A stretch of 14,666 nucleotides of DNA from a bacterium. GTDB taxonomy: Bacteria > Elusimicrobiota > Elusimicrobia > UBA1565 > UBA9628. Numbering within the stretch: the first letter of the stretch is position 1; each line of letters begins with the position of its first letter. The translations under genes and the position numbers were made by a program. This document shows positions 2,419 through 14,355 of this stretch, piece by piece. The stretch covers positions 1 to 14,666 of the forward strand of contig JAJYOT010000047.1 in the NCBI GenBank assembly GCA_021796015.1, in the 5' to 3' direction. The notes beneath the pieces were generated by a model. That model was not told where the DNA came from. It made no database searches and saw only the letters and a program-made list of their open reading frames with translations.

Positions 2419-2456
2419 TGAATATCTCAGAGAAACCGACAATTAACGCGGAAACT

Positions 2457-2484
2457 GTAACATTTGAGAATCAGAACAGACTTA
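2457..2484 (+). promoter_or_regulatory. ECF-type promoter, copy A (before bufABC)
   Basis: GTAAC at 2457-2461 (inside TGTAACATTT at 2456-2465) is followed after exactly 17 bases by GACTTA at 2479-2484. The same two blocks with the same spacing occur at 5997 and 10917, each before an operon. The GTAAC -35 core resembles the GTAAC-type -35 known for Caulobacter SigF, which drives bufferin operons. Transcription would begin near 2491, leaving a leader of about 55 bases with AAAGGAGG before bufA. Confidence 0.75.
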
Positions 2485-2545
2485 TCTTAAGCTGGACGTC
2501 TTGGGCTTAGCTTAAAATCCTAAAATAAAAAATAAAGGAGGATCA

Positions 2546-2848
2546 ATGGACAAGAAAAAGAACAAAGCGTTGTTAAGCGCCGCGGTCGCGGGGCTGATGG
2601 GAGCGGCGTTGATGGCGGTTCCGGCGGCGGCAAAAAAAGCGCCGAAGCTGGTTCACTGCTACGGCGTCAACAAATGCAAGGGGCACGCAAGCTGCATGGG
2701 CAAGGGACATATGTGCGCCGGCAAAAACAGCTGCAAGGGGCAGGGGTGGCTCGCCATGCCCGCGAAATCCTGCGAGAACATAGAAGGCGGCTCGCTTAAA
2801 CCCGTCAAAAAAATGAGCATGCCGATGAAAAAGATGAGCGGACAATAG
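2546..2848 (+). CDS. bufA: Bufferin-type RiPP metallophore precursor (DUF2282)
   Basis: A 100-residue exported precursor. Residues 1-29 are a signal peptide (Lys-rich start, hydrophobic core, AAA before KK). The core has six cysteines at 38, 44, 50, 57, 63 and 76. It shows the DUF2282 signatures CYGVNKCKG and CAGKNSCKGQGW. Bufferins are known from Caulobacter as ribosomal peptides in which MNIO enzymes turn some cysteines into 5-thiooxazoles; the modified peptide is exported and binds copper. The adjacent bufB and bufC support this assignment. The last 13 residues are Met- and Lys-rich (MSMPMKKM), which could add copper ligands and looks unusual. AAAGGAGG stands 7 bases before the ATG. Which cysteines are modified cannot be read from the DNA. 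Confidence 0.88.
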   Translation: MDKKKNKALLSAAVAGLMGAALMAVPAAAKKAPKLVHCYGVNKCKGHASCMGKGHMCAGKNSCKGQGWLAMPAKSCENIEGGSLKPVKKMSMPMKKMSGQ

Positions 2849-2853
2849 ACCTA

Positions 2854-3753
2854 ATGAATCAGGATAGGATCAAAACCAAAGCCCAGGCATTCCGCGATAA
2901 AAAAATCGTTTGCGGCGTCGGAGTCGGCCTGCGCTCGGTTCATTACGATCATGTCCTGTCCCGACGCCCCGCCGTCCCTTGGTTTGAGGTGATTTCCGAA
3001 AACTATATGGGACTGCGGGGCGATCAAGGAGGAAGGCCGCTGGAAATTCTGGAAGAAGCGCGGCGAAATTATCCCATCGTTCTTCACGGGGTTTCGCTCA
3101 ACATCGGTTCGGCCGACCCGCTTGATAAAAATTATTTAACCGCCTTAAAACGCCTGGCCGACCGCATCGACTCTCCCCATGTCACCGATCATCTTTGTTG
3201 GACCGGAGTTAAGGGCCAAAACCTCCACGATCTATTGCCCTTGCCGTATACGGCGGAAGGCTTGAATTTAATTTCTTCTCGCGCCGCCCAGATTCAAGAT
3301 ATTTTAGGACGGCCCTTCGCCTTGGAAAACCCGTCCACCTATCTGGCGTTTCGCCATTCCCAGATGCCGGAATGGGAGTTTTTAGCCGAGGCCGCTCGCC
3401 AAGCCGGCTGCGGCATTCTTTTAGACATTAACAATGTTTATGTCAGCGCGAAAAACCACGGCTTTGATCCCGTTGAATACCTGAGAAATATTCCCGCTGA
3501 CAGTGTCATCCAAATGCATCTGGCTGGTTATTCTCATTGCGGCAATCTTTTGATTGACACCCACGATCATCCGGTGTCGGATCCCGTCTGGGAACTCTAC
3601 GGCGAGGCCGTGCGCCTGTTTGGCGATGTCCCGACATTAATTGAGTGGGACGACAAAATTCCGTCGTTTGGCGTCCTTGAAAAAGAGGCCGCGCGCGCCG
3701 AAAAAATAAGGAGGAAAATTCTTGGCAAGCGAGATTGCGCCGCCCTTGTCTAA
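2854..3753 (+). CDS. bufB: BufB, DUF692/MNIO multinuclear iron oxidative enzyme
   Basis: A 299-residue DUF692 protein, the usual length for the family. MNIO enzymes are TIM-barrel proteins with two or three iron ions that rearrange cysteines in ribosomal peptides (MbnB, TglH and BufB are examples). Conserved metal-site segments are visible in order: GVGLRSVHYDHVL (23-35), FEVISENYM (44-52), LHGVSLNIGS (78-87), HVTDHLCW (109-116), ALENPSTYL (156-164), LLDINNVYVS (189-198), QMHLAGYSHCG with DTHDHPV (220-241), and LIEWDDKIPS (262-271). It starts 5 bases after the bufA stop with no strong ribosome binding site, so it is probably coupled to bufA. The partner bufC overlaps its end by 32 bases. Its predicted substrate is the bufA product. 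Confidence 0.95.
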   Translation: MNQDRIKTKAQAFRDKKIVCGVGVGLRSVHYDHVLSRRPAVPWFEVISENYMGLRGDQGGRPLEILEEARRNYPIVLHGVSLNIGSADPLDKNYLTALKRLADRIDSPHVTDHLCWTGVKGQNLHDLLPLPYTAEGLNLISSRAAQIQDILGRPFALENPSTYLAFRHSQMPEWEFLAEAARQAGCGILLDINNVYVSAKNHGFDPVEYLRNIPADSVIQMHLAGYSHCGNLLIDTHDHPVSDPVWELYGEAVRLFGDVPTLIEWDDKIPSFGVLEKEAARAEKIRRKILGKRDCAALV

Positions 3754-4555
3754 ACTCCAGGAAAGCCTGCAAAAGATTCTAACCGACTCTGGAGGCGTCA
3801 ACAACGCTTTGTCTAATCCATCGGTTCAATTTCTGCCTCATTTTCTCGCTGAAACCTCCGCGGTTTCGGCGCGGGAACGCCTCGGCGTTTATTGCGACGC
3901 TTATTTCCTGCGCATACTCGAATCATTGGGTTCTGACTTCCCAACGCTTAAAGAGTTCTTAGGCGATAAAAATTTTCGCTATCTGATCGCGGATTATCTC
4001 AAGGACCACCCCTCCCGCTTTAAAAATATTTCCCTTATCGGCGAGCGCTTGCCGAAATTTATATCCCGGCATCCTCTCAATAGAAAGTTTAGCTTCCTCG
4101 CCGATTTATCCCGATTGGAATGGGAAGTTCTCTCGTGCCTTTATCGCGACAGGCTTTCCCCCTTAAACCTAGAGTCGCTGCGCCAAATTCCGGAAAAATC
4201 CTGGCCGAAGGCGAGATTTATTTTTGACCCCAGCGTCCGATTTATTGAACTCGATTGGGATGTCGATCGTCTGTGGAATGAACGAATGCTGGCGAGAACC
4301 AAAAAGAGAAACCTCAAAATTAAAAAAAGCGAGCGTTCTCTTTTGATTGTCCGCGATCATCAATGGGTCCAGGTTCGGGCTCTTGGGCTTGAGGAATCTA
4401 CGGCCCTCAAAATACTCCGCGGCGGCGCTTCTTTAGGAAATCTCTGCGATTTCCTCGAGAATTCCCGCAAGTTCCAGGTCAAGCCCGGCGCTATCCAAGT
4501 CTGGATTCACGATTGGATTTCCTCGGGAGTTCTAAATCGGTTAGTTTTTCCATAG
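3722..4555 (+). CDS. bufC: BufC, DUF2063 partner of the MNIO enzyme
   Basis: A 277-residue protein with a TTG start. AGGAGG at 3710-3715 lies 6 bases before the TTG and fixes the start, inside the end of bufB. Residues about 8-130 are the helical DUF2063 (BufC/HvfC-type N-terminal) domain, with RERLGVYCDAYFLRILESLG at 51-70 and DYLKDHPSRF at about 91-100. The last ~70 residues look like a winged, PqqD/RRE-like domain (LGLEESTALKILRGGASLGNL). In known MNIO systems this partner binds the precursor and presents it to the enzyme. A stretch of 25 codons (residues 53-77) is repeated at 14138-14215. The next gene converges on it from the minus strand. Confidence 0.9.
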   Translation: MASEIAPPLSKLQESLQKILTDSGGVNNALSNPSVQFLPHFLAETSAVSARERLGVYCDAYFLRILESLGSDFPTLKEFLGDKNFRYLIADYLKDHPSRFKNISLIGERLPKFISRHPLNRKFSFLADLSRLEWEVLSCLYRDRLSPLNLESLRQIPEKSWPKARFIFDPSVRFIELDWDVDRLWNERMLARTKKRNLKIKKSERSLLIVRDHQWVQVRALGLEESTALKILRGGASLGNLCDFLENSRKFQVKPGAIQVWIHDWISSGVLNRLVFP

Positions 4556-4655
4556 TCTCAACCCCTGCGCATGGACTTCACCGCCAATTTCCCGCCCCAA
4601 TGCGCCAGAAACCATGGATGGATCAAGCGGAAAATTTTGCCGCGAAATGAGTAGT

Positions 4656-5159
4656 TCACAAAACCGACGCTTTCACGGCTTCCAGGAATTTTTCGTCGCT
4701 GACGGCGGAAAGGTGATGTTTGAAGGTAGCCCCGCCTTTTTTGTCCAAGATCAACACGTTGTACATGGGGCAGGCGCCGCCCGGATGAGCCAAGCCCAAG
4801 GTTTTTCCCAGCCAGTCCGCAGGGTCTAAGAGCAAAGGAAAATCAAAACGATGATCCCTCAAAACCCGCTCCGGAGCGCTTTGGTCCGCGCCCAAGGTTG
4901 AAATCGCCAACACCTCGAGATGTTCGCGGTTCGATTGATAAATATCCTGCAAAAAACCGATCCTTTCCTGACAAGTAGAACACAGATTGGTAAACCATAA
5001 GACGACGGATTTCTGAAGAAAATAGGAGGACAAGGTGTAAGGCCGCCCTTTTAAGTCGCGCAAGGTAAAGTCTGGAATGGCCTCTCCAAGTTTGACGCCT
5101 TGATAGGGATGAAGCAAAAACCTCGCGCGAATAAACGTTTTCCAAAAAAGTTTTTTCAT
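4656..5159 (-). CDS. Redoxin (AhpC/TSA-like thioredoxin-fold protein)
   Basis: A 167-residue thioredoxin-fold protein of the AhpC/TSA–Redoxin type. Features in order: a basic N-terminus without a clear signal peptide, GEAIPDFTLRDLKGRPYTL (25-43), the active site VLWFTNLCSTCQER with a CxxC pair (C60 and C63), then DFPLLLDP and LGLAHPGGACPMYNVLILD with a third cysteine (C130). The CxxC suggests a thiol-disulfide reductase or peroxiredoxin-like activity. Its ATG overlaps the stop of the anti-sigma gene (ATGA), so it is the third gene of the sigma operon. In that place it may act on the redox state of the zinc-binding anti-sigma factor; this is inference. Confidence 0.85.
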   Translation of the reverse strand: MKKLFWKTFIRARFLLHPYQGVKLGEAIPDFTLRDLKGRPYTLSSYFLQKSVVLWFTNLCSTCQERIGFLQDIYQSNREHLEVLAISTLGADQSAPERVLRDHRFDFPLLLDPADWLGKTLGLAHPGGACPMYNVLILDKKGGATFKHHLSAVSDEKFLEAVKASVL

Positions 5160-5407
5160 TTCGGTTTGAGATGTTCCAGAATACGGCGCTTGGCGGCTTT
5201 AACTACGCGCGGGTCAAGCTGGGGCCGCGCTATTTCTTCTACCGTTTTAGAAATCATCTCTAATTGCCGCGAAAAGCGCCGGCAATGCTCGCATAACATC
5301 AAATGCAGGCGCAAAAGCCCGCGCTGAAGCAAGGGCGCATTGAAAAGTTCTCCGACAAGAACTTTCTCGGACACCTCCCGACAAGACGGCATCAGGCGTT
5401 TAATCAT
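5156..5407 (-). CDS. Zinc-finger anti-sigma factor (ZAS/zf-HC2 type)
   Basis: An 83-residue soluble protein with the H-x3-C-x2-C motif of zinc-binding anti-sigma factors: H35, C39 and C42 in LHLMLCEHC. C9 (MPSCREVSEK) is a likely further ligand. There is no transmembrane segment, so it would hold the sigma factor in the cytoplasm. Its start overlaps the sigma-factor stop by 8 nt and its stop overlaps the redoxin start by 4 nt. Proteins of this class often sense oxidants or metals by loss of zinc or disulfide formation, which fits the metal genes around it. The exact signal cannot be told from the sequence. Confidence 0.8.
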   Translation of the reverse strand: MIKRLMPSCREVSEKVLVGELFNAPLLQRGLLRLHLMLCEHCRRFSRQLEMISKTVEEIARPQLDPRVVKAAKRRILEHLKPK

Positions 5408-5990
5408 GTTTCCCGCTTTCCCATTTCTTTTCCAGGCACTCCCGCAGCTTGATGCGGGCTCTGTAGAGAAGCACCCGTAAATTGGTATAGGAAACGCCCA
5501 AAATGTTACAGATATCCTCGGAGGACTCTCCCTCCGATTCCCGAAGGAAAAACGCCGTTTTTTGGCTTAAGGTCAAGCCCTCGGCGCATTGCGCGATCAA
5601 TTCCTTGATCTCTCCGGTCAAGACGCTTTCCTCGGGGCCCAAGGGAGGGCGAGACCACAGGCCGCTCTCGTTAAAACGCTTTTCAAAGTCATCTTGAATT
5701 TTGTCAAGGCTTTCCTCGCGATAGCTTTTTCGGCGGAAATCCGCAGCCTTATTATAAAGGATTCCGACAAGATAGGTCTTAATTTGGGATCGCCCTTCAA
5801 AGCGATCAAGCGCGCTTAAGAAGGCGGCGAAGGTTTCCTGTGCGAGTTCCTCGGCGTCGGCTTGGGAAAACCCCATGGCAAAACTCACGGCCAAAAGCGT
5901 CTGAGTATGGGAGTTGACCAATTCCGCCATCGCGCCGTCCCGGCCCTCCTTGAGAGCCCGGATATCGTCTTTAGAGATATCGGTTGGCAT
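5400..5990 (-). CDS. ECF-family RNA polymerase sigma factor
   Basis: A 196-residue sigma-70-family factor of ECF type. Region 2 runs over residues about 20-90 (AMAELVNSHTQ, then EELAQETFAAFLSALDRFEG and IKTYLVGILYNKAADFRRK). Region 4 is at about 138-186 (LTLSQKTAFFLRE, EDICNILGVSYTNLRVLLYRARIKL), the helix-turn-helix that reads the -35 element. The linker between them is rather long (about 91-130). The ATG at 5990 is used because the first helix needs residues 8-20; no ribosome binding site is seen before it. An anti-sigma gene follows directly. It is the obvious candidate to read the three GTAAC-N17-GACTYA elements. No such element points at its own gene, so it is probably not self-activated through that site. 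Confidence 0.93.
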   Translation of the reverse strand: MPTDISKDDIRALKEGRDGAMAELVNSHTQTLLAVSFAMGFSQADAEELAQETFAAFLSALDRFEGRSQIKTYLVGILYNKAADFRRKSYREESLDKIQDDFEKRFNESGLWSRPPLGPEESVLTGEIKELIAQCAEGLTLSQKTAFFLRESEGESSEDICNILGVSYTNLRVLLYRARIKLRECLEKKWESGKHD

Positions 5991-5996
5991 AGGGTT

Positions 5997-6024
5997 GTAA
6001 CATTTTACAAATTTGTCCGACTTA
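5997..6024 (+). promoter_or_regulatory. ECF-type promoter, copy B (before the PiT/arsenic operon)
   Basis: GTAAC at 5997-6001 (within TGTAACATTT) and GACTTA at 6019-6024 are 17 bases apart, as in copies A and C. The -35 half also lies in an inverted repeat, TTGTAA-CATT-TTACAA (5996-6011). The element lies in the 45-base gap between the sigma factor (reading left) and the transporter (reading right) and points right. A start site near 6031 would leave almost no leader before the ATG at 6036. Confidence 0.75.
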
Positions 6025-6035
6025 CTTGTGTGACC

Positions 6036-7022
6036 ATGGACTTGACCACGCTTCTAGGAATAACTGGCGCGGCAGCTCTCGCTTTCGTCAACGGCGCCAA
6101 CGATATATCAAAGTCCATCGCCACCTTGGTCGGAAGCGGTGAGTCAAGTTACAAGAGGGCCGTGATCCTTGTCGCCCTGAGTACTGCCGCGGGAGCGATC
6201 CTCGCTTCCGCCTGGGCCGTCAAGATGACTCTCCTTTTCACCAGAGGAATGCTGTCTCCGCGTATTAAAATCAACGAAATTTTCGCCTTAGCGGTTCTCG
6301 CCGGAGCCATTCTCTGGATTCTGATGGCGACGAAAATCGGACTTCCAGTCTCTACCACTCACGCCATCGTAGGCAGCGTCATTTTGACTGGCGTCTACGC
6401 CTTTGGCTTTCGCAACGTCTTCTGGTCAAGTCTAACGCGAAATGTGGTCCTGCCGCTCCTTGTTTCCCCCATCGCCGCTTTTGTCGCGGCCCGTTTGATC
6501 TTTCGGGGATTGTTTTGGCTCTGCCGCAAAAAATATTGTCTCAACTGTCACTGGGCGCATTGGATGAGCGCGATGTCAAGCGGCTTCGCGCGTGGGCTCA
6601 ACGATACTCCAAAAATCGCCGCCTTCGGGTTTATCTTCTACTATATCCTCGACCCTCAAACTCATATCGCGCCAAAGTGGTTTTTTCTGATTCTAGCCAC
6701 CGCAATGGCCTCGGGAGCAATCGCCATGGGTCTACAGGTGACGAAAACACTCGCCGAGAAGATTACACAAATGGACCATCTGGAAGGTTTTGCCGCCAAT
6801 CTCGCGACCTCCATGTTGGTCATCATAGGTGCAATCGCAGGTTGGCCTATGTCGACAACTCATGTCGCCAGCGGCGGCATCATGGGAATCGGCCTCCGCA
6901 ACGGAGAAAAGACCATCGATTGGAAAACGGTGGGCGAGATATTAGCGGCATGGGTCATTACATTGCCAGTCTCCGGGATGATGGGCATGGCGGCTTATTG
7001 GGCTTTTAAAAAATTAAAATAA
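6036..7022 (+). CDS. PiT-family inorganic phosphate/anion transporter
   Basis: A 328-residue multi-spanning inner-membrane protein of the PiT family (H+- or Na+-coupled phosphate or metal-phosphate uptake). Both PiT half-repeats are visible: FVNGANDISKSIATLVGSG (18-35) with PVSTTHAIVGS (104-114), and GFARGLNDTPKIAAFG (183-198) with PMSTTHVASGGI (271-282). The ATG at 6036 starts right at the first membrane helix; there is no ribosome binding site, and the promoter is so close that the mRNA may be nearly leaderless. The middle loop has a Cys/His cluster, LCRKKYCLNCHWAHW (C163, C168, C171, H172, H175), a possible metal site. It begins the arsenic-related operon. Arsenate uses phosphate carriers, but substrate and direction are not shown. 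Confidence 0.92.
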   Translation: MDLTTLLGITGAAALAFVNGANDISKSIATLVGSGESSYKRAVILVALSTAAGAILASAWAVKMTLLFTRGMLSPRIKINEIFALAVLAGAILWILMATKIGLPVSTTHAIVGSVILTGVYAFGFRNVFWSSLTRNVVLPLLVSPIAAFVAARLIFRGLFWLCRKKYCLNCHWAHWMSAMSSGFARGLNDTPKIAAFGFIFYYILDPQTHIAPKWFFLILATAMASGAIAMGLQVTKTLAEKITQMDHLEGFAANLATSMLVIIGAIAGWPMSTTHVASGGIMGIGLRNGEKTIDWKTVGEILAAWVITLPVSGMMGMAAYWAFKKLK

Positions 7023-7041
7023 GGAATACAGGAGAAAATAC

Positions 7042-9567
7042 ATGGAAACACAACTCATTGAAATCAAAGCCGACACGATTTTTTACAAGCCAGAGCTTCA
7101 CTGCTGGCAAAAAGACGGGCTTTATTTCGCCCTTGACCCTGATTCTCCAAACTGGGTCTCGACCGATGAGCGAGGGAAAAATATTTTGGATCTTATCGAT
7201 GGGAAAAATCCAGTCTCTGAAATTTTAAGGCTTTACTCCCAAAAAACCGGCTTGGACTATGGAAAAACCTGGCGGGACATCCACTCTTTTTTGCGCGAAG
7301 CCGAAAGAAAAGAAATTATTTCCCCAAAGCCCTTCAATCGCCCCCCTTATGAAGGACGCGCACGACATTTAAAGATGGGAAAATTGAAAGAGTTTTGGAT
7401 ACATCTTCTTCAAACCTGCAATCTGTCCTGTTCTCATTGCCTAGTTTCCTCCGACCCCCACGGCGAGAAAGGAGAGAGCAAAGACTTTTATTTAAAAGCG
7501 ATTGACGAAGCTTTCGATCTCGGAGTCAGGCGCTTCTATTTCACGGGAGGAGAACCCTTTATTTATGATGGGATATTCGATCTCATCAGCCACATCGTTG
7601 AAGCAAAGAAGGCGGAACTCATTGTCCTAACCAACGCGACCCTGCTTCAGGGAGAAAGACTGCGGAAAATCGAGAAATTTGACCCTAATCTTCTTAAATT
7701 CCAGGTCAGCCTGGATGGGACGACTTCGGAAATCAACGACCCCATTCGCGGCGCGGGCGTATTCAAAAAAGCCTCGCAGGGACTTCTCAACTTAAGCCGC
7801 CTGGGATTTGAAGCCTCTTTAACTGCAGTTGTCACCAAATCCAATATCGAAGACCTTAAAAATTTACCAAAAATCGCCAAGGAGCTGGGGGCAAAATCCG
7901 TCCATCTCATGTGGCTCCACAAACGCGGCCGCATTCTCAACTCGGACGAAAACGGAAATCCGCCATCGAATACGGAACTCCTCGATCTCACACGACACGT
8001 AAGAAGCGCGGCCAAAGAATACGGGATTGTCTTTGACAACTTTGAGTCTATTTTAAGCCGCATCAACGGCAAGGCGGGGGTTAAATACGATTTGGGAAAT
8101 CTCTGCTGGGAAAGTTTGTGCCTCTATCGGGACGGCGGCGTCTACCCATCGGCCGCGACAGCGGGAATTTCCACCCTGGAGTTAGGAAACGCGAAATCAT
8201 CTCGGCTTGCCGCACTGTGGGAAAAAAGTTCCGTGGCCCAATTATTCCGCGAAACAAGCGTCATTCAAAAAAGATCTCTTTTAAATCATCCTTTCCGCTT
8301 TTTAAGCGGCGGCGGAGACATGGAGCACTCATACTTTTTCAGTTCCAATGGAACGGAAGGCTCGATTTTAGCGGATGACCCTTATCATGAGCTCTACGTT
8401 GATATGATTAAAGACGCGATAGCGGAGCTTGCCCTGCGCGCCCAAAAATCCCAGAACATGAAGTCGGGATTTAATCCCCCCACCATTTATCACGCAATGG
8501 GAGACGGCGGAATTTCCTGCAGCGAGGACGCCCAAGATTGGCTCATCGGACATGAAGTAAAACCAACGCGATTTCTCCACACCAATTGCGTTCTTTCCTT
8601 CGATGTGGAAAAACCCTACCGCATAGTCCAAAAATTTTATGGACAAGCGGCCAATGAACCGCAAAAAGAGCTCTGTTGCCCGGTCAAATACGACGAAGCC
8701 GAGGTCGGCCATATTCCCAAAGATGTCTTGGATCGCTTCTACGGCTGCGGTTCTCCTATCTCTGAGGCGCAAATCACCCCGGGAGAAACGATCCTCGACA
8801 TCGGTTCAGGAGCCGGCATAGACTGCTTTATCGCCGCTAAAAAAACCGGCCCCAAGGGACGAGTGATTGGAGTCGACATGACCAGCGAAATGCTGGCCGT
8901 CGCCCGCAGATGCCAAAAAGACGTCGCCTCAGCCTTGGGTTATGATGTCGTCGATTTCAAGGAAGGATTTCTTGAAAAAATTCCCACAAAAGATAAAAGC
9001 GTGGATATTGTGACATCCAACTGCGTCATCAATCTCTCGCCGGATAAAGCAAAGGTCTTTTCGGAAATTTGGCGCATCTTGAAAGACAACGGGCGGATGG
9101 TCGTCGCCGATATCGTATCTGAAAATCCCGTGCCCCTCAACCTCCAAGCGCACAAAGACCTATGGGGAGAATGCATCTCGGGTTCTCTGTCCGAGGCGGA
9201 GTTTCTAGCGGGACTTGAACGAGCGGGATTTTATGGAATTCGCGTCCTAAAAAAAACCTTTTGGAAGGAAGTGGAAGGCTATCCCTTCTATTCGATTACC
9301 GTCAGAGGTTTTAAATACGAAAAGAAATCCGCCTGTTCTTTTATCGGCCAAAAGGCTGTCTATTGGGGCCCGTATAAGGCGGTCATCGACGAAGAAGGGC
9401 ATCTTTTCCCTCGCGGAGAATTAGTGGAGGTCTGCACCGACACGGCATCCAAGCTCGCGGCGCCGCCTTATGCCGGAGATTTTAGCGTCATCAAATCTAG
9501 CGAATCCCTTGAAAAACCGCCCGTTCCCGAAGGCGCTTGTTGCAGCCCGGAAAAAGCTTGCTGCTAA
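7042..9567 (+). CDS. Fusion: PqqD/RRE-like + radical SAM + ArsM-like arsenite methyltransferase
   Basis: A single 841-residue protein. Residues about 1-95 look like a PqqD/RRE domain. Residues about 115-330 are a radical SAM barrel with C126xxxC130xxC133 (CNLSCSHC) for the 4Fe-4S cluster and FTGGEPF at 167-173. Residues about 350-500 are Cys-containing and may bind a further cluster (C355, C360; SGGGDMEHSYFF). Residues about 555-760 are a SAM methyltransferase with LDIGSGAGIDC (585-595). This part keeps the three Cys positions typical of ArsM: YGCGSP (C569), SNCVINLSPDK (C661) and WGEC (C711). The tail ends in ACCSPEKACC. ArsM methylates arsenite; radical SAM enzymes such as ArsS add an adenosyl group to dimethylarsenic in arsenosugar synthesis. 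Joining both activities is the likely point of the fusion (inference). AGGAG precedes the ATG; 20 bases separate it from the transporter gene. Confidence 0.9.
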   Translation: METQLIEIKADTIFYKPELHCWQKDGLYFALDPDSPNWVSTDERGKNILDLIDGKNPVSEILRLYSQKTGLDYGKTWRDIHSFLREAERKEIISPKPFNRPPYEGRARHLKMGKLKEFWIHLLQTCNLSCSHCLVSSDPHGEKGESKDFYLKAIDEAFDLGVRRFYFTGGEPFIYDGIFDLISHIVEAKKAELIVLTNATLLQGERLRKIEKFDPNLLKFQVSLDGTTSEINDPIRGAGVFKKASQGLLNLSRLGFEASLTAVVTKSNIEDLKNLPKIAKELGAKSVHLMWLHKRGRILNSDENGNPPSNTELLDLTRHVRSAAKEYGIVFDNFESILSRINGKAGVKYDLGNLCWESLCLYRDGGVYPSAATAGISTLELGNAKSSRLAALWEKSSVAQLFRETSVIQKRSLLNHPFRFLSGGGDMEHSYFFSSNGTEGSILADDPYHELYVDMIKDAIAELALRAQKSQNMKSGFNPPTIYHAMGDGGISCSEDAQDWLIGHEVKPTRFLHTNCVLSFDVEKPYRIVQKFYGQAANEPQKELCCPVKYDEAEVGHIPKDVLDRFYGCGSPISEAQITPGETILDIGSGAGIDCFIAAKKTGPKGRVIGVDMTSEMLAVARRCQKDVASALGYDVVDFKEGFLEKIPTKDKSVDIVTSNCVINLSPDKAKVFSEIWRILKDNGRMVVADIVSENPVPLNLQAHKDLWGECISGSLSEAEFLAGLERAGFYGIRVLKKTFWKEVEGYPFYSITVRGFKYEKKSACSFIGQKAVYWGPYKAVIDEEGHLFPRGELVEVCTDTASKLAAPPYAGDFSVIKSSESLEKPPVPEGACCSPEKACC

Positions 9568-9576
9568 TGCCCCAAC

Positions 9577-10260
9577 ATGAAATTTTCCATCGTCATTCCG
9601 ACCTTCAACGAAGAAAAGTCCATTACAAAGACTCTTTCTCTATTGAGGAGTCAGGCCCAGGAAAGCGAATTAGAAATAATCGTAGTCGATGCGCATAGTT
9701 CTGACAGAACGGTGGAGCTGGCTGAGAAGCTCGCGGATCAAACGATTTTCTCGCCCCCGGGCCGCGCCATTCAAATGCACAAAGGAGCCCTCGCCGCTTC
9801 GGGAGAATTACTCGTTTTTCTCCATGCCGACACGCGCCTGCCGGCGTCTTGGGTCCACGCCGCCTTAAAGGCTTTCGCTGTTCTTCCAAGGCCTGCGGCC
9901 TTGGCGTTTCGACTTCGCTTTGACAGAGACGAGTTTGTTTACCGCTTTATCGCCCAAGCCTCTTATTGGAGAAGTCTATTGACCGGAGTCCCCCTCGGCG
10001 ATCAAGCCCTCATCATTTCAAAGGAATTGTATTTTCGAAGCGGAGGGTTTCCGCCAGTCCCCATCTTCGAGGAATATTTTTTGATAAAAAATCTCAAGAG
10101 CCTGGGAAGAGTTCAAATTCTGGAAGATTCGGTCACGACATCCTCGCGGAGATACGAGAAAAATGGCCCGCTTTCCAACGCGTTGAAAAATTCCTGGATC
10201 ACTTTTTTGTTTTATCTTGGGATTTCGCCTTCCGTTTTGGCGCGGATGTATAAGCCCTAA
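9577..10260 (+). CDS. Family 2 glycosyltransferase, TIGR04283 type (arsenosugar-associated)
   Basis: A 227-residue GT-A-fold glycosyltransferase. The N-terminus is the nucleotide-sugar site: SIVIPTFNEEKSI (4-16), EIIVVDAHSSDRTVELAEKL, and FLHADTRLP, in which HADT is the metal-binding DxD-like segment. Further on are TGVPLGDQALII and the conserved GGFPPVPIFEEYFL. This is the pattern of the TIGR04283 family, which usually sits beside DUF2064/TIGR04282 and radical SAM/ArsM genes in arsenosugar loci, as here. It would transfer a sugar to or from the arsenic-bearing nucleoside; the exact donor and acceptor are not known. It begins 9 bases after the fusion gene, with no strong ribosome binding site, so it is likely coupled. 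Confidence 0.88.
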   Translation: MKFSIVIPTFNEEKSITKTLSLLRSQAQESELEIIVVDAHSSDRTVELAEKLADQTIFSPPGRAIQMHKGALAASGELLVFLHADTRLPASWVHAALKAFAVLPRPAALAFRLRFDRDEFVYRFIAQASYWRSLLTGVPLGDQALIISKELYFRSGGFPPVPIFEEYFLIKNLKSLGRVQILEDSVTTSSRRYEKNGPLSNALKNSWITFLFYLGISPSVLARMYKP

Positions 10261-10920
10261 ATGAACGCCCTCATTGTTTTCGTTAAGGATCCAATCCCGG
10301 GCAAGGTCAAGACGCGGCTTTGCCCTCCGTTCTCATATGATCAGGCCGCGAGCCTTTACAAATCTTTCGCCGAAGACGTCCTCGAATCGGCTCTCCAAGT
10401 GAGAAATGCGAACATTTTCGCCGCTTACGCCGGCGAAAAATCTCCGCCCAGTTTATTAGAGAAGCGCCCAAAAATTAGCTCGTTTAGACAGGAGGGCCCC
10501 GATCTCGGATTCAAACTCATTAACGCCTTTAAAACCGCGTTTGCCGAAAAAAACTCAAAGGCTGTCATTATCGGATCGGACGCCCCGCAGATCTCCCCGC
10601 GAATTGCCGAAGAGGCCTTTGAGGCGCTTGAGATTGCCGACATGGTTTTAGGGCCAGCCGAGGACGGCGGATATTATCTTATCGCGCTCAAAAGAATCAT
10701 CCCTGAACTGTTCTTTGAAATTCCCTGGTCCACAGAAAAAGTTTTGAGCGAAACTCTGTCTCGCGCCCAAAACCTCGGCCTCAAAATCAAACTCTTGCCG
10801 ACGCTCTTTGACATAGACAATTATGACAATCTCCAAAAACTAATCAAGACTCTTGAGTCTCTGCCGAAAACCAGCTGCCCCGCCACCCGAAAAGCCCTGG
10901 CGGAATTTTCCCACCTGTAA
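10261..10920 (+). CDS. DUF2064/TIGR04282 glycosyltransferase-like protein (arsenosugar-associated)
   Basis: A 219-residue nucleotide-diphospho-sugar-transferase-fold protein. Signatures in order: VKDPIPGKVKTRLCP (8-22), IIGSDAPQI (102-110), MVLGPAEDGGYYLIAL (132-147), and IPWSTEKVLSET (about 158-169). These are the standard blocks of the TIGR04282 family, named for arsenosugar biosynthesis by gene neighbourhood. The ATG follows the previous stop without a gap. Its own stop (TAA at 10918-10920) lies inside the -35 box of promoter copy C, so the next operon starts without any spacer. Biochemical function in the family is not established as far as I know. Confidence 0.9.
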   Translation: MNALIVFVKDPIPGKVKTRLCPPFSYDQAASLYKSFAEDVLESALQVRNANIFAAYAGEKSPPSLLEKRPKISSFRQEGPDLGFKLINAFKTAFAEKNSKAVIIGSDAPQISPRIAEEAFEALEIADMVLGPAEDGGYYLIALKRIIPELFFEIPWSTEKVLSETLSRAQNLGLKIKLLPTLFDIDNYDNLQKLIKTLESLPKTSCPATRKALAEFSHL

Positions 10921-10944
10921 CATTTCGCCGTTTAAGGCGACTCA
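10917..10944 (+). promoter_or_regulatory. ECF-type promoter, copy C (before the DUF547/VTT/reductase operon)
   Basis: GTAAC at 10917-10921 (within TGTAACATTT) and GACTCA at 10939-10944 are 17 bases apart; the -10-like block differs from copies A and B by one base. The spacer holds a small perfect inverted repeat, TCGCC-GTTTAA-GGCGA (10925-10940). A start near 10951 leaves a leader of about 38 bases that carries AAAGGAGG before the 43-residue peptide. Confidence 0.72.
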
Positions 10945-10988
10945 TTAAAAGAGAAATAAACTCATGAAAATCAAAGGAGGAGAAAATT

Positions 10989-11120
10989 ATGGCTCTTATG
11001 TGTCAGATGGGATCGTGCAAGGCAAAACAGGGGATGTGCGGCCACGAGAAAATGATGCTTCTGGCGGTCATGCTCATCTCAGCGGGAGCGGCGGGGCATT
11101 GGCTATTGCATTTATTTTAG
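10989..11120 (+). CDS. 43-residue Cys/Met/His membrane peptide
   Basis: The strongest ribosome binding site in this stretch (AAAGGAGGAG, 10973-10982) stands just before this ATG, which marks it as the true first gene after promoter C. The product begins MALMCQMGSCKAKQGMCGH, giving three Cys (5, 10, 17), several Met and one His in 19 residues. It continues with one transmembrane helix (about 22-40) and ends HWLLHLF. The ligand-rich N-terminal part would lie in the cytoplasm or periplasm depending on insertion. Ligand type and setting suggest metal binding or sensing at the membrane. No named family is recognised. Its end overlaps the start region of the DUF547 gene in another frame. Confidence 0.65.
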   Translation: MALMCQMGSCKAKQGMCGHEKMMLLAVMLISAGAAGHWLLHLF

Positions 11121-11920
11121 GCCTTGGTCTTGCGGCAAAACCAGCGCGGGCCGGAGTTGAAAGACTCTCCGGCCCGACGGCTTTGTGGAATCAAGTCCTT
11201 ATGTCCTATGTCCACAACGCCCGGGTGGATTACGCGGATTTACAAGCCCATCCTGAAATATTGAATCAATACATAAAATCCTTAGCTATCAAGCCGCGTG
11301 AAAAACACGTCCAAGAAAATCTCGATACAAAAATCGCATTCTTAATCAACGCTTATAACGCCTTGACGATGAAGACGATTATCGATCATTATCCGATCCA
11401 ATGGTCCTGGGCAGCGTCTCTTATTTATCCCAAAAACAGCATTCGCCAAATTCCGGGAGTTTGGGATCGCTTGAAATTTAACGTCATGGGCCAAGAAATG
11501 ACCTTACAGGAAATCGAAAATACCCTCCGGGGCCTTGGCGACCCGCGCATTCACATGGCGATTGTCTGCGCTTCCAAAGGCTGCCCGCCGTTGAGATCCG
11601 AGCCCTATCTCGGCAAAAAACTCAGCGCTCAACTTGACGATCAAACGCGCCGATTTTTGTCGAATCCAAAAAAATTCGCGATTGATAAAAAAGCTGGCAT
11701 CGTTTATCTTTCCCCCATTTTTAAATGGTTTGGAGGAGATTTTGCGCCCAAATTCGAGCCCGGAATTGGTTTTGAAGGGCAAAACGCGAATGTGCGCGCG
11801 GCGTTAAATTTCATCAGCGGCTATTTAAGCGTTGACGACGCTCTTTATCTGCGCGGCGAAGCCTACCAAGTTGAGTACCTCGCCTATGACTGGTCGCTTA
11901 ATGAATGGAAAAAGCAATGA
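11099..11920 (+). CDS. DUF547 family exported protein
   Basis: The DUF547 domain is clear: WNQVLMSYVHNARVDYADL, IAFLINAYNALTMKTI, RIHMAIVCASKGCPPLR, and YLSPIFKWFGGDF near the end. DUF547 proteins resemble papain-/transglutaminase-like folds, but no reaction is established to my knowledge. I place the start at the TTG at 11099 (GGGAG about 10 bases upstream). This gives a signal-like helix (AIAFILGLGLAAKPARA) and about 273 residues. The start is uncertain: the frame is open back to an ATG at 10964, but that would read 45 odd residues across the 43-residue peptide. GTG at 11036 is another choice, and the TTG form lacks basic residues in front of the helix. Its stop overlaps the VTT gene. Confidence 0.82.
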   Translation: MAIAFILGLGLAAKPARAGVERLSGPTALWNQVLMSYVHNARVDYADLQAHPEILNQYIKSLAIKPREKHVQENLDTKIAFLINAYNALTMKTIIDHYPIQWSWAASLIYPKNSIRQIPGVWDRLKFNVMGQEMTLQEIENTLRGLGDPRIHMAIVCASKGCPPLRSEPYLGKKLSAQLDDQTRRFLSNPKKFAIDKKAGIVYLSPIFKWFGGDFAPKFEPGIGFEGQNANVRAALNFISGYLSVDDALYLRGEAYQVEYLAYDWSLNEWKKQ

Positions 11921-12615
11921 AACATCTTAAAATTATTCTGACCGCCCTTTTGGCCGCGGCTCTCATCATTTTCTCCCGGCATTTTAACGCGTCGGGACTT
12001 TTAAAAGAGTCTCTGGAATCCATAAAAAACCTCGGCCCTTGGGCGCCACTGATCTTTATCGCCCTTTATGTCGCGACCACGGTCCTGCTTATTCCCGGTT
12101 CCATTTTAACCTTGGGATCCGGAGTTCTCTTCGGCGTTTTTTGGGGAACCTTTTACGTCTCAATTGCCTCCACCATCGGCGCGACGGCGGCTTTCGCCCT
12201 TGGGAGAGGATTCGCCAGGGATTGGATTTCCCGCAAAATAAAATCAAATTCCTCTTTTAACGCCGTCTCTCAAGCGGCCGCCCGCGAAGGCTGGAAAATC
12301 GTCGTTTTGACGCGCCTCTCGCCGATTTTCCCGTTTAACCTCCTCAATTACGCCTTCGGCCTTACTGACGTCTCTTTCCGCGACTATGTCTTCGCTTCCT
12401 GGATTGGGATGCTCCCGGGAACAATCCTTTATGTTTACATTGGTTCTTTAGCCGGAGATTTGGCGCGAGTTGGGATTTCCTCTGGGCATTCCCGCCCCCC
12501 GGTTGAATGGGCTTTTTATTCCGTCGGTCTTCTCGCGACCATCGCCGTTTCCATTTACATCGGCCGCATCGCAAAGGCCGCAATCGCCCAAAAAACCTCA
12601 AAGGAGGCGTTATGA
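11917..12615 (+). CDS. TVP38/TMEM64 (VTT domain) membrane protein
   Basis: An inner-membrane protein of about 232 residues in the VTT/DedA-like superfamily. Visible parts: an N-terminal helix (LKIILTALLAAALII), LIFIALYVATTVLLIPGSIL, LGSGVLFGVFWGTFYVSIASTIGATAAF with its re-entrant glycine-rich pattern, and the signature LTRLSPIFPFNLLNYAFGLT, followed by PGTILYVYIG. I start it at 11917, where ATGA overlaps the DUF547 stop; an ATG at 11905 would add four residues. Genes of this family often stand next to a mercuric-reductase-like flavoprotein, as here. Family members have been linked to lipid scrambling or small-solute transport; a role in selenite or mercury handling has also been suggested. 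Substrate unknown. Confidence 0.9.
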   Translation: MKHLKIILTALLAAALIIFSRHFNASGLLKESLESIKNLGPWAPLIFIALYVATTVLLIPGSILTLGSGVLFGVFWGTFYVSIASTIGATAAFALGRGFARDWISRKIKSNSSFNAVSQAAAREGWKIVVLTRLSPIFPFNLLNYAFGLTDVSFRDYVFASWIGMLPGTILYVYIGSLAGDLARVGISSGHSRPPVEWAFYSVGLLATIAVSIYIGRIAKAAIAQKTSKEAL

Positions 12616-14132
12616 CCTTGGAAACTCATCTTGCTCCGGAAGACGAACACAACCAGTTTCTGCTTTCAAATGTCCACCCAAAGGATTGGAAAAATCCGCG
12701 GGCGGCGGCGAAATACGACTTGGCGGTTATCGGGGGCGGAACCGCGGGACTAGTCAGCGCGGCGGGAGCGGCGGGTCTGGGCGCCAAAGTCGCGCTAATT
12801 GAAAGACATTTTCTGGGCGGAGATTGCTTAAATGTCGGTTGCGTGCCGTCGAAAGCCCTCATTCGAGCCTCTCGCGCGGCCTTTGACGCTCGCGCCGCCA
12901 GAGATTTTGGAGTCAACGTCCCCGAGAGCGTGGCGGCCAATTTTCCAAGAATCATGGAGAGAATGCGAAAACTTCGCTCGAGCCTTAGCCCGCATGACTC
13001 GGCCGCGAGGTTTAAAGAACTGGGAGTCGACGTGTTTTTGGGAGACGGAAAATTCACCTCGCCAGATGCGCTCGAGGTCGATGGGCAGCGATTATTTTTT
13101 TCAAAAGCGGTGATCGCCTCGGGGGCGCGGGCCGCCAAACTTCCAATCCCGGGCTTGTGGGATGCGGGAGCCTTAAGCAATGAAGAGGTTTTTAACCTGA
13201 CGGAGCTTCCCAAGCGGCTTCTGGTCATCGGCGCCGGCCCCATCGGAGTTGAAATGGCGCAAGCATTCGCGCGTTTTGGTTCTCAAGTCACTCTTTTTGA
13301 AACCATGCATGGGATTTTGCCTAGGGAAGACAAAGACGCTTCCGCGATCGTCCAAAAGTCATTGGAAAAAGACGGGGGCAATTTCTTTTGTTGCGTTGAA
13401 ATTGAAGGCGTTGAACGCAGAAACAATGAAACCCATGTCCGTTTTAAATCCAAGCACGGAACCTGGGGCGAAAAAATCTTTGACGCGGTCTTAGTCGGAG
13501 TCGGCCGCGCCCCCAACACCGAAGGCCTGGGGCTTGAAAAGGCTCAGGTTCAATTCGATAAAAACGGCGTCAAGGTTAATGATTTTCTTCAAACATCCAA
13601 CCCAAAAATTTTCGCGGCGGGAGACATCTGTTCTGTTTACAAATTCACCCATGCCGCCGATGCCATGGCCCGCATCGTCATTCAAAACGCGCTTTTTCTG
13701 GGGCGCAAGCGCGCAAGCTCGTTGATCATTCCATGGAGCGTCTACTCCGATCCCGAAATCGCCCATGTCGGGCTTTATGAAGCGGAGGCCGTCAATCGAA
13801 AAATTTCCGTTGAAACCTTCATCCAAAAATTCGAGGATGTCGACCGCGCCGTTCTCGATGGAGAATCGGAAGGCTTTGTTAAAATTCACGTTCGCAAGGG
13901 AACCGATAAAATACTCGGCGCTACGATTGTTTCAAGGCACGCCGGGGAAATGATTGGAGAAATCACGTTAGCCATGACAAATAATCTCGGGCTTAAGGCC
14001 ATCGCCCAAACAATTCATCCCTACCCCACACAAACCGAAAGCGTCAAGAAAACGGCCGACGCCTACAACAGAAGCCGCCTGACGCCCTTCGTCAAATCCG
14101 TTTTAGCCAAATGGCTGAGCTGGGGGAGATAA
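12612..14132 (+). CDS. Mercuric-reductase-like FAD/NAD(P) disulfide oxidoreductase
   Basis: A 506-residue class I pyridine-nucleotide disulfide oxidoreductase. Order: a 35-residue extension with NVHPKDWKNP, the FAD site AVIGGGTAGLV (38-48), the redox pair GGDCLNVGCVPSK (C72 and C77), the NAD(P) site LLVIGAGPIGVEMAQAF, IFAAGDICS, and the dimer domain with HPYPTQTESVKKTADAYNRS. The start is the ATG overlapping the VTT stop (ATGA) after AAGGAGG; a longer frame upstream is read-through of the VTT gene. True MerA ends in a vicinal Cys pair that hands Hg(II) to the active site; this protein ends KWLSWGR and has none, and it has no N-terminal HMA domain. It is therefore probably a related reductase of unknown substrate, not proven MerA. 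Confidence 0.88.
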   Translation: MTLETHLAPEDEHNQFLLSNVHPKDWKNPRAAAKYDLAVIGGGTAGLVSAAGAAGLGAKVALIERHFLGGDCLNVGCVPSKALIRASRAAFDARAARDFGVNVPESVAANFPRIMERMRKLRSSLSPHDSAARFKELGVDVFLGDGKFTSPDALEVDGQRLFFSKAVIASGARAAKLPIPGLWDAGALSNEEVFNLTELPKRLLVIGAGPIGVEMAQAFARFGSQVTLFETMHGILPREDKDASAIVQKSLEKDGGNFFCCVEIEGVERRNNETHVRFKSKHGTWGEKIFDAVLVGVGRAPNTEGLGLEKAQVQFDKNGVKVNDFLQTSNPKIFAAGDICSVYKFTHAADAMARIVIQNALFLGRKRASSLIIPWSVYSDPEIAHVGLYEAEAVNRKISVETFIQKFEDVDRAVLDGESEGFVKIHVRKGTDKILGATIVSRHAGEMIGEITLAMTNNLGLKAIAQTIHPYPTQTESVKKTADAYNRSRLTPFVKSVLAKWLSWGR

Positions 14133-14137
14133 AACAG

Positions 14138-14215
14138 CGCCTCGGCATTTATTGCGACGCTTATTTCCTGCGCATACTCGAATCATTGGGTCTTGATTTC
14201 CCGGCGCTCAAATGA
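14138..14215 (+). pseudogene. Remnant of a second bufC (25 codons)
   Basis: This stretch repeats residues 53-77 of bufC (3878-3952) in frame. By eye 68 of 75 bases match, with an unbroken identical run of 44 bases (3888-3931 against 14148-14191). The peptide reads RLGIYCDAYFLRILESLG and on to LK before TGA; 22 of 25 residues are unchanged, the changes being V/I, S/L and T/A. No start codon or other bufC sequence is seen on either side. The similarity begins six bases after the reductase stop and fades after the TGA. It is therefore a broken piece of a paralogous bufC, not a gene. Confidence 0.85.
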
Positions 14216-14286: not shown

Positions 14287-14355
14287 ATGAACGAGGAAAC
14301 CGCTAAAAAATGCGAGTGCGGCTGCTCACGCCGCTCCGGAAATAAATGCTACTGA
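14287..14355 (+). CDS. 22-residue Cys-rich peptide
   Basis: A very short frame with a strong ribosome binding site (AAGGAGG, 14275-14281) 5 bases before the ATG. It encodes 22 residues, MNEETAKK followed by CECGCSRRSGNKCY, with Cys at 9, 11, 13 and 21. The CxCxC cluster and the Glu/Thr/Lys-rich start recall the 42-residue peptide at 1616. A thiolate metal-binding role is possible. It stands between the bufC remnant and a convergent gene and may be the last gene of the transcript or a stray. Confidence 0.5.
   Translation: MNEETAKKCECGCSRRSGNKCY

Follow-up and report, generated by a model that had tools for sequence, protein, structure and literature searches.

A candidate ECF sigma regulon linking arsenosugar-type, bufferin and repair genes in Elusimicrobiota, with a likely feedback promoter within the sigma gene

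The stretch of DNA analyzed here (the window) comprises 14,666 nucleotides, positions 1 to 14,666 of contig JAJYOT010000047.1 (assembly GCA_021796015.1), and derives from a bacterium of lineage UBA9628 in the Elusimicrobiota, a phylum with few cultured members. Its central island encodes an extracytoplasmic function (ECF) sigma factor, a zinc-type (ZAS) anti-sigma factor and a redoxin on one strand, together with three gene sets on the other: the bufferin genes bufABC, a PiT-family transporter with arsenosugar-type genes, and a short peptide with DUF547, VTT and oxidoreductase genes. Each of the three sets is preceded by a copy of the same two-box promoter element (copies A, B and C), and a fourth copy (D) lies within the sigma gene itself. 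The features are collected in Table 1.

Table 1. Promoter copies and genes of the island, with positions in the window and supporting matches
Feature	Position	Strand	Remarks
Promoter copy A, TGTAAC-N17-GACTTA	2456..2484	+	61 nt before bufA (ATG 2546)
Promoter copy B, TGTAAC-N17-GACTTA	5996..6024	+	divergent from sigma, 11 nt before PiT (ATG 6036)
Promoter copy C, TGTAAC-N17-GACTCA	10916..10944	+	44 nt before 43-residue peptide (ATG 10989)
Promoter copy D, TGTAACATTTTGGGCGTTTCCTATACCAA	5510-5482	-	within sigma codons 161-170, 74 nt before anti-sigma start
ECF sigma factor	5400..5990	-	PF04542, PF08281; TIGR02937 above cut-off
ZAS anti-sigma factor, 83 residues	5156..5407	-	Cys/His motif
AhpC/TSA-type redoxin, third gene of presumed sigma operon	4656..5159	-	PF00578 51.8 bits
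bufA, BufA2-type bufferin precursor	2546..2848	+	NF050166 74.2 bits (cut-off 60); PF10048
bufB, MNIO enzyme	2854..3753	+	PF05114 350 bits
bufC, DUF2063 partner, start codon uncertain	3722..4555	+	PF09836 58.5 bits
PiT-family transporter (phosphate/arsenate-type)	6036..7022	+	PF01384 210 bits
Radical SAM/arsenite-methyltransferase-like fusion, 841 residues	7042..9567	+	PF04055, PF13847
Arsenosugar-type glycosyltransferase TIGR04283	9577..10260	+	233 bits (cut-off 182)
Arsenosugar-type glycosyltransferase TIGR04282	10261..10920	+	192 bits (cut-off 134)
43-residue Cys/Met-rich peptide MALMCQMGSCKAKQGMCGHEK + hydrophobic tail	10989..11120	+	homologues in L059, L060
DUF547 protein, inferred TTG start, overlaps peptide gene	11098..11920	+	PF04784 77 bits (frame 10964-11920)
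VTT/TVP38-type membrane protein	11905..12615	+	PF09335 113 bits
FAD-dependent disulfide-type oxidoreductase	12612..14132	+	NF004991 780 bits (cut-off 620)

The initial annotation had described three plus-strand copies of TGTAACATTT-N13-GACTYA as a conserved two-box element. Copies A to C are real: all three were recovered in place and in orientation with 0 mismatches each, the 10-base -35 side is the same in all of them, and the spacing is constant while the spacer bases differ. Allowing up to 3 mismatches, the window contains four matches, versus a mean of 0.11 and a maximum of 2 in 200 dinucleotide shuffles. The 5' bases of copy C run into the stop codon (10918-10920) of the upstream glycosyltransferase gene. 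The "ATTT" extension of the -35 box is local, and relatives retain TGTAAC and ACTYA.

The genome scans proposed in the initial annotation were also in its favor. The nearest genome compared (G001, 2.0 Mb), which has 69% of sampled 31-mers in common with the window, contains exactly three zero-mismatch matches to TGTAACATTT-N13-GACTYA, all inside the same island; at ≤2 mismatches the total is five, as in the reversed control, and thus only the exact matches are informative in this genome. Among 44 genomes of the same family, TGTAAC-N17-GACTYA gave 15 matches versus 4 for the reversed control. These fall in 8 genomes, all of which belong to the 21 that bear the sigma gene (E<=1e-20), and none occurs in the 23 sigma-less genomes; the chance that a random draw of 8 genomes would land entirely in the 21 is ~0.001. 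All 15 matches share a contig with an orthologue of the window sigma gene, and one of them (G031:C111:6971) is the site embedded in that gene.

Across 340 genomes of the phylum, the KACTYA version of the motif yielded 105 matches in 74 genomes. Of the 340 genomes, 31 have a match to the window sigma (E<=1e-35), and these contain 32 motif matches versus 7 in the control, 28 of the 32 on a contig with the sigma match. The 309 genomes without the sigma contain 73 matches versus ~129 in the control, which were not taken as sites (the split by sigma presence was counted by hand from the listing). An order-level relative, G230, carries four matches inside 7 kb on its sigma contig, and G223, with no sigma match at the cut-off, has two motif matches on a contig with an anti-sigma-like fragment. 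A regulon of genome-wide extent was considered and is unsupported: the exact sites of G001 are confined to the island, though the relatives G006, G228 and G230 carry four to five.

A set of 24 relative loci (332 kb) contained 17 GACTYA and 23 KACTYA sites, a few of them embedded, versus 0.017 per round in 60 rounds of shuffling. When spacings of 12 to 22 were scanned in these loci and the window, 26 sites were found at 17 and none at 12-16 or 18-22. Eighteen of the loci were picked by their sigma gene, some borders being set after the matches were known, and six were picked by the matches, so that the consensus and spacing scans of these loci are not blind; those of G001, the 44 same-family genomes and the 340 phylum genomes are. 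Chance as the origin of the motif is ruled out by the window shuffles together with the G001, 44-genome, 340-genome and spacing scans.

The sigma protein has sigma70 regions 2 and 4 only, as expected of the ECF class, and its eight distant matches among solved structures are mostly other ECF sigmas. Cys135, Cys161 and Cys185 are invariant in a 20-row alignment, although four rows of the larger codon set lack Cys161. In the 83-residue anti-sigma, Cys9-X25-His35-X3-Cys39-X2-Cys42 is invariant in 19 of 19 aligned rows and conforms to the ZAS motif C/H-X23-26-H-X3-C-X2-C, as given in the available part of its description (PMC7907618). The protein has no Pfam match; its predicted structure consists of four helices (mean pLDDT 81.8), for which Foldseek returned nothing at E<=0.001 and 29 entries at E<=10, an RslA-containing entry being at rank 22. 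The redoxin gene overlaps the anti-sigma gene.

Copy D, a fourth match to TGTAACATTT at 5510 on the minus strand with 3 mismatches, had been overlooked in the initial annotation. Region 4.2 of ECF sigma factors reads the -35 box in established structures, and the codons that form copy D (residues 161-170) belong to this region. In a test for sites upstream of individual genes (window consensus, window row included, 100 shuffles, p-values of single tests), the anti-sigma was positive in 23 of 27 rows at p<=0.05, more loci than for any other copy. TGT encodes Cys161 in 31 of the 32 rows, a count that includes near-duplicate strains, whereas elsewhere in these sigma genes Cys is encoded by TGC at 73 of 79 codons and by TGT at 6. 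Four rows have Arg or Gly instead of Cys at this residue and use CGT or GGT for it. GTAA is retained in all 31 sigma genes of the codon scan despite variation at residues 161 and 162.

The synonymous scan covered 31 genes, each measured against the codon usage of its own locus, and omitted L036, L037, L038 and L113 (near-duplicate or partial), matches below 44% identity, L073 (sigma truncated by the contig end) and the paralogue L061:6853. Codon 161 carries T at its third position in 31 of 31 genes versus 5.1 expected (z=13), and the top eight outliers among 178 codons are 161, 169, 173, 172, 171, 164, 163 and 170. Reduced to a single gene for each genus (14 genera in six families), the scan still placed 161 and 169 first and second in three draws. 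Five less closely related ECF genes, four of which adjoin buf clusters, lack an embedded site, and so does the paralogue L061:6853, where the Cys161 codon is TGC. From these comparisons, the synonymous sites at copy D look to be selected as DNA, and copy D is likely a feedback promoter that drives the anti-sigma.

In several lineages the embedded and external sites change together. Four genomes of genus g3 carry Lys162 and the embedded box TGTAAG, and TGTAAG-N17-CACGMA was detected in three of these four versus none of 12 Asn162 genomes, with 1 control match. L146 has TGTAAT in embedded and external sites alike, and the same holds for CACTCA in L069, L070, L072, L152 and L154.

The genes behind the sites in relatives encode PiT/arsenosugar proteins, BufA, the 43-residue peptide, DUF547 proteins and MsrA or MsrAB (the latter named by a Pfam scan in L069 and by reading the sequence in L070, L072 and L154), as well as carboxymuconolactone decarboxylase-type, aquaporin-type, DUF3179 and DUF1348 proteins; by these genes, the regulon would mix arsenic, copper and oxidant damage. 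In the upstream test a site was detected in 3 of 3 rows for bufA (p 0.01; at 55 and 57 nt in L057 and L135), in 3 of 3 for the peptide (p 0.01; at 39 and 38 nt in L059 and L060) and in 9 of 12 for PiT (p<=0.03, with a tenth row at 0.09), and in none of the rows for bufB (0/3), bufC (0/3) and the TIGR04282 glycosyltransferase (0/11). DUF547 was positive in 2 of 13 rows, one being the embedded site. The automated test misplaces DUF547 starts, since the alignments mostly begin near residue 30-80, and the DUF547 sites rest on other scans of the relative loci, the spacing scan among them.

TIGR04283 occurs above its cut-off within 18 kb of the sigma match in at least 13 of the 31 sigma-bearing genomes, with up to 8 candidates scored in each, and four of the 31 (G001, G033, G027 and G006) have MNIO genes within 20 kb of it. 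In G006, bufABC directly follows the PiT, methyltransferase, radical SAM and two glycosyltransferase genes in the same direction, and its bufA has a weaker upstream site. This distribution suggests that the arsenosugar-type genes form the older core of the regulon and that bufferin is not its core. The initial proposal of a single regulon thus stands in part: by comparison, a sigma-linked promoter joins the three operons, but bufferin would not be their center. In genus g7 (L039:5393, L057:4169), the site divergent from the sigma gene precedes a 364-residue protein in place of PiT, and the divergent slot therefore holds different genes by lineage; the L057 copy has no Pfam match.

Among the gene products of the window, a BufA2 precursor, an MNIO enzyme and a DUF2063 protein together make up a BufA2 cluster, and the two glycosyltransferases define the arsenosugar-type set. 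The 841-residue fusion scores 231.6 bits for NF008823 (cut-off 263), 57 of 300 bits for the ArsS model TIGR04167 and 151 of 400 bits for the arsenosugar ArsM model NF038099; the fusion stands in place of ArsS and arsenosugar ArsM. In G006, the radical SAM and methyltransferase parts match separate frames, unlike the fusion of the window. The last gene of the island, initially labeled a reductase, matches the FAD-dependent oxidoreductase model NF004991 best and stays below the MerA cut-off (375 of 454 bits). A dedicated search with the 43-residue peptide gave one match, and in L059 a frame with a weak DUF6132 match (20.7 bits, cut-off 23.2) comes after the peptide. About 75 bases of bufC (3878-3952) recur at 14138-14212, right after the oxidoreductase gene, and are read as a remnant of duplication or rearrangement; a bufC-like fragment is also present in L037. 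Two short Cys-rich, metallothionein-like peptides (1616-1744 and 14287-14355) lie on either side of the island, with relatives in L060 and L059.

BufA2-like clusters in L132, L133, L134 and L141 adjoin a second ECF sigma, a paralogue of 36-39% identity. Upstream of bufA in these loci, TGWCAT-N17-CACTSA, a candidate sister promoter with the same spacing, was read by eye; it is also present in L139, with no sigma match in the stretch examined.

We consider it highly probable that the island forms a local stress regulon of an ECF sigma, its ZAS anti-sigma, three operons and a fourth promoter inside the sigma gene. In this proposal, the small cytoplasmic anti-sigma would hold the sigma factor until a thiophilic metal(loid) or an oxidant attacks its Cys/His zinc site and frees it; the particular signal and metal are guesses on our part. 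Free sigma would then initiate at TGTAAC-N17-KACTYA before bufABC (putative copper-binding peptide), before the PiT, radical SAM-ArsM and arsenosugar glycosyltransferase genes and before the peptide, DUF547, VTT and reductase genes. The fourth promoter, in the codons of the helix with which the sigma reads its -35 box, would drive the anti-sigma and the redoxin and thereby close a negative feedback loop. Comparison among genomes establishes the sites, their fixed spacing, the tie to the sigma gene, the ZAS motif, the DNA-level constraint at copy D and a partial covariation; from these we infer that the sigma recognizes the sites and that the embedded promoter has an output. For the fuller proposition, in which region 4.2 codons double as the anti-sigma promoter and the regulon joins arsenosugar-type chemistry, BufA2 bufferin and thiol/methionine repair in several Elusimicrobiota families, our confidence is more modest, although we lean towards it.

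Three other explanations were weighed. The embedded match could be a by-product of coding, if region 4.2 requires Cys-Asn...Thr-Asn/His and its codons happen to spell the motif. The invariance of C161 and T169 in the 20-row protein alignment does fix several bases, and the embedded -10 often tracks the codons (ACC AAY) instead of the external ACTYA. Third positions, however, are free of the protein, and the preference for TGT at codon 161 compared with Cys codons elsewhere in the sigma genes, the CGT or GGT found where Cys is lost, and the lack of such a site in the five distant ECF genes and the paralogue make this explanation improbable. The constraint might instead serve something else, such as mRNA structure or the way in which the overlapping anti-sigma gene is translated; in keeping with this, the outliers extend downstream past the -10 box to codons 171-173 and 177. 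We regard it as unlikely, with the two strongest outliers sitting on the -35 and -10 boxes at exactly the spacing of the external promoters and GTAA being kept while residues 161 and 162 vary. Very unlikely, in our estimate, is that a different regulator, whether activator or repressor, moves with the island and binds the motif. Recognition of the motif by the sigma does rest on comparison, and a MerR-family gene lies close to the sigma in L105; yet neither box is an inverted copy of the other, the spacer is always 17, the sites point at genes over a short distance, the matches go with the sigma gene in different families, and the external sites covary with some of the embedded bases.

Several observations weigh against a sigma-driven regulon with an embedded promoter. 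Scattered positives in the upstream test were obtained for VTT (1/14), the TIGR04283 glycosyltransferase (2/12), the reductase (2/13), the redoxin (2/8), the sigma gene (2/29 scored) and the radical SAM gene (1/14 scored). One reversed match to the position weight matrix, at 19.9 bits, occurs in each of L076, L036 and L037 (overlapping or near-identical DNA), and no convincing external site was found in the stretches examined of L067, L071, L148, L149, L150, L151 and L153. The loci L057, L058, L061, L062, L075 and L105-L112 were fetched or bordered after motif matches were known, and the sequences are mostly metagenome-assembled genomes related to one another. When each genus contributes a single gene, codons 66, 111, 157, 167 and 177 join the top nine outliers, and part of the constraint may therefore have another cause. 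Three of the five TGTAAG-N17-CACGMA matches are the embedded sites themselves, leaving two external ones; the Lys162 genome G007 has no such match, and the Lys162 loci L145 and L149 (embedded TGTAAA) show no acceptable TGTAAA promoter. The embedded -10 of the window is TACCAA, unlike the external GACTYA, and L058, L061, L062, L064, L105 and L110 have embedded ACCAA or ACGAA versus external ACTYA, so that the covariation is only partial.

For an ECF group on which we met no study in the literature, the analysis proposes a promoter code, and it links arsenosugar-type genes to ECF/ZAS control. If the embedded promoter is real, the sigma protein and its own promoter would be written in the same bases, each constraining the evolution of the other; a change in the helix would alter the embedded promoter at once, so that specificity would evolve coupled to feedback; the Lys162/TGTAAG lineages are a hint of this.

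The systems compared below are described as far as the available parts of the cited papers go. Caulobacter SigF (ECF16) recognizes GTAACC-N16-CGAA, is paired with a DUF1109 anti-sigma (NrsF) of six membrane segments, and, under dichromate stress, regulates DUF2282/DUF692/DUF2063 (bufferin) genes (PMC3511200, PMC3420878). The initial annotation had pointed to this likeness, and it holds for the GTAAC -35 box and the 22-nt offset to the -10 box, but not for the -10 itself, which is KACTYA here, nor for the anti-sigma, which is of ZAS type; the window thus has neither the CGAA -10 nor the NrsF/DUF1109 membrane anti-sigma that mark the SigF/ECF16 group. Unlike the window, the part of the SigF target table that was available lists no arsenic genes (PMC3511200, PMC3420878).

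A parallel in the anti-sigma is provided by Neisseria sigmaE-MseR and Haemophilus RpoE2-HrsE, in which an ECF sigma is likewise paired with a small ZAS anti-sigma, and msrAB targets are common to these systems and the relatives L069, L070, L072 and L154 (PMC2893595, PMC7907618). The Neisseria -35 box (GTMAGBWTT, 12-13 nt spacing) partly resembles GTAACATTT-N13 by eye, while its -10 box, CGTCTAAH, differs from KACTYA. The meningococcal regulon consists of the rpoE operon and msrA/msrB, and arsenosugar genes go unmentioned in the available text (PMC2893595, PMC7907618).

In Cupriavidus, the copper-induced, bufferin-type gig cluster of gigPABT-rpoQ-rsqA is divergent from an ECF sigma/anti-sigma pair; the anti-sigma is predicted to be membrane-bound, and dependence of gig on RpoQ is not established there (PMC10304878). 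Sigma genes have been stated to occur in Buf1 but not Buf2 clusters (PMC12452194). In contrast, BufA2 clusters above the cut-off lie in the sigma islands of the window and L057, and BufA2-type clusters adjoin the second ECF group in L132, L133, L134 and L141, although the BufA2 scores of L132 and L133 are below the cut-off (59.9 and 54.6 of 60). This placement of BufA2 clusters near ECF sigma genes runs contrary to the published statement with a caveat of definition: NCBIfam BufA2 is equated with Buf2 by name only, and the window sigma, three genes from buf and on the other strand, may fall outside the cluster definition used (PMC12452194).

A precedent for the feedback layout is Corynebacterium SigH-RshA, in which sigH contains a SigH-dependent promoter for rshA that gives starts 62 and 66 nt upstream of the rshA start codon; the layout as such is therefore already known, while the promoter consensus is another one (PMC3489674). 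The available part of that paper mentions neither covariation nor a DNA-level constraint acting on the codons of the recognition helix, and in the literature searched on internal promoters we found no case in which such codons are conserved as an anti-sigma promoter. The promoter embedded in the window sigma gene may thus be a new variant of the layout known from SigH and rshA.

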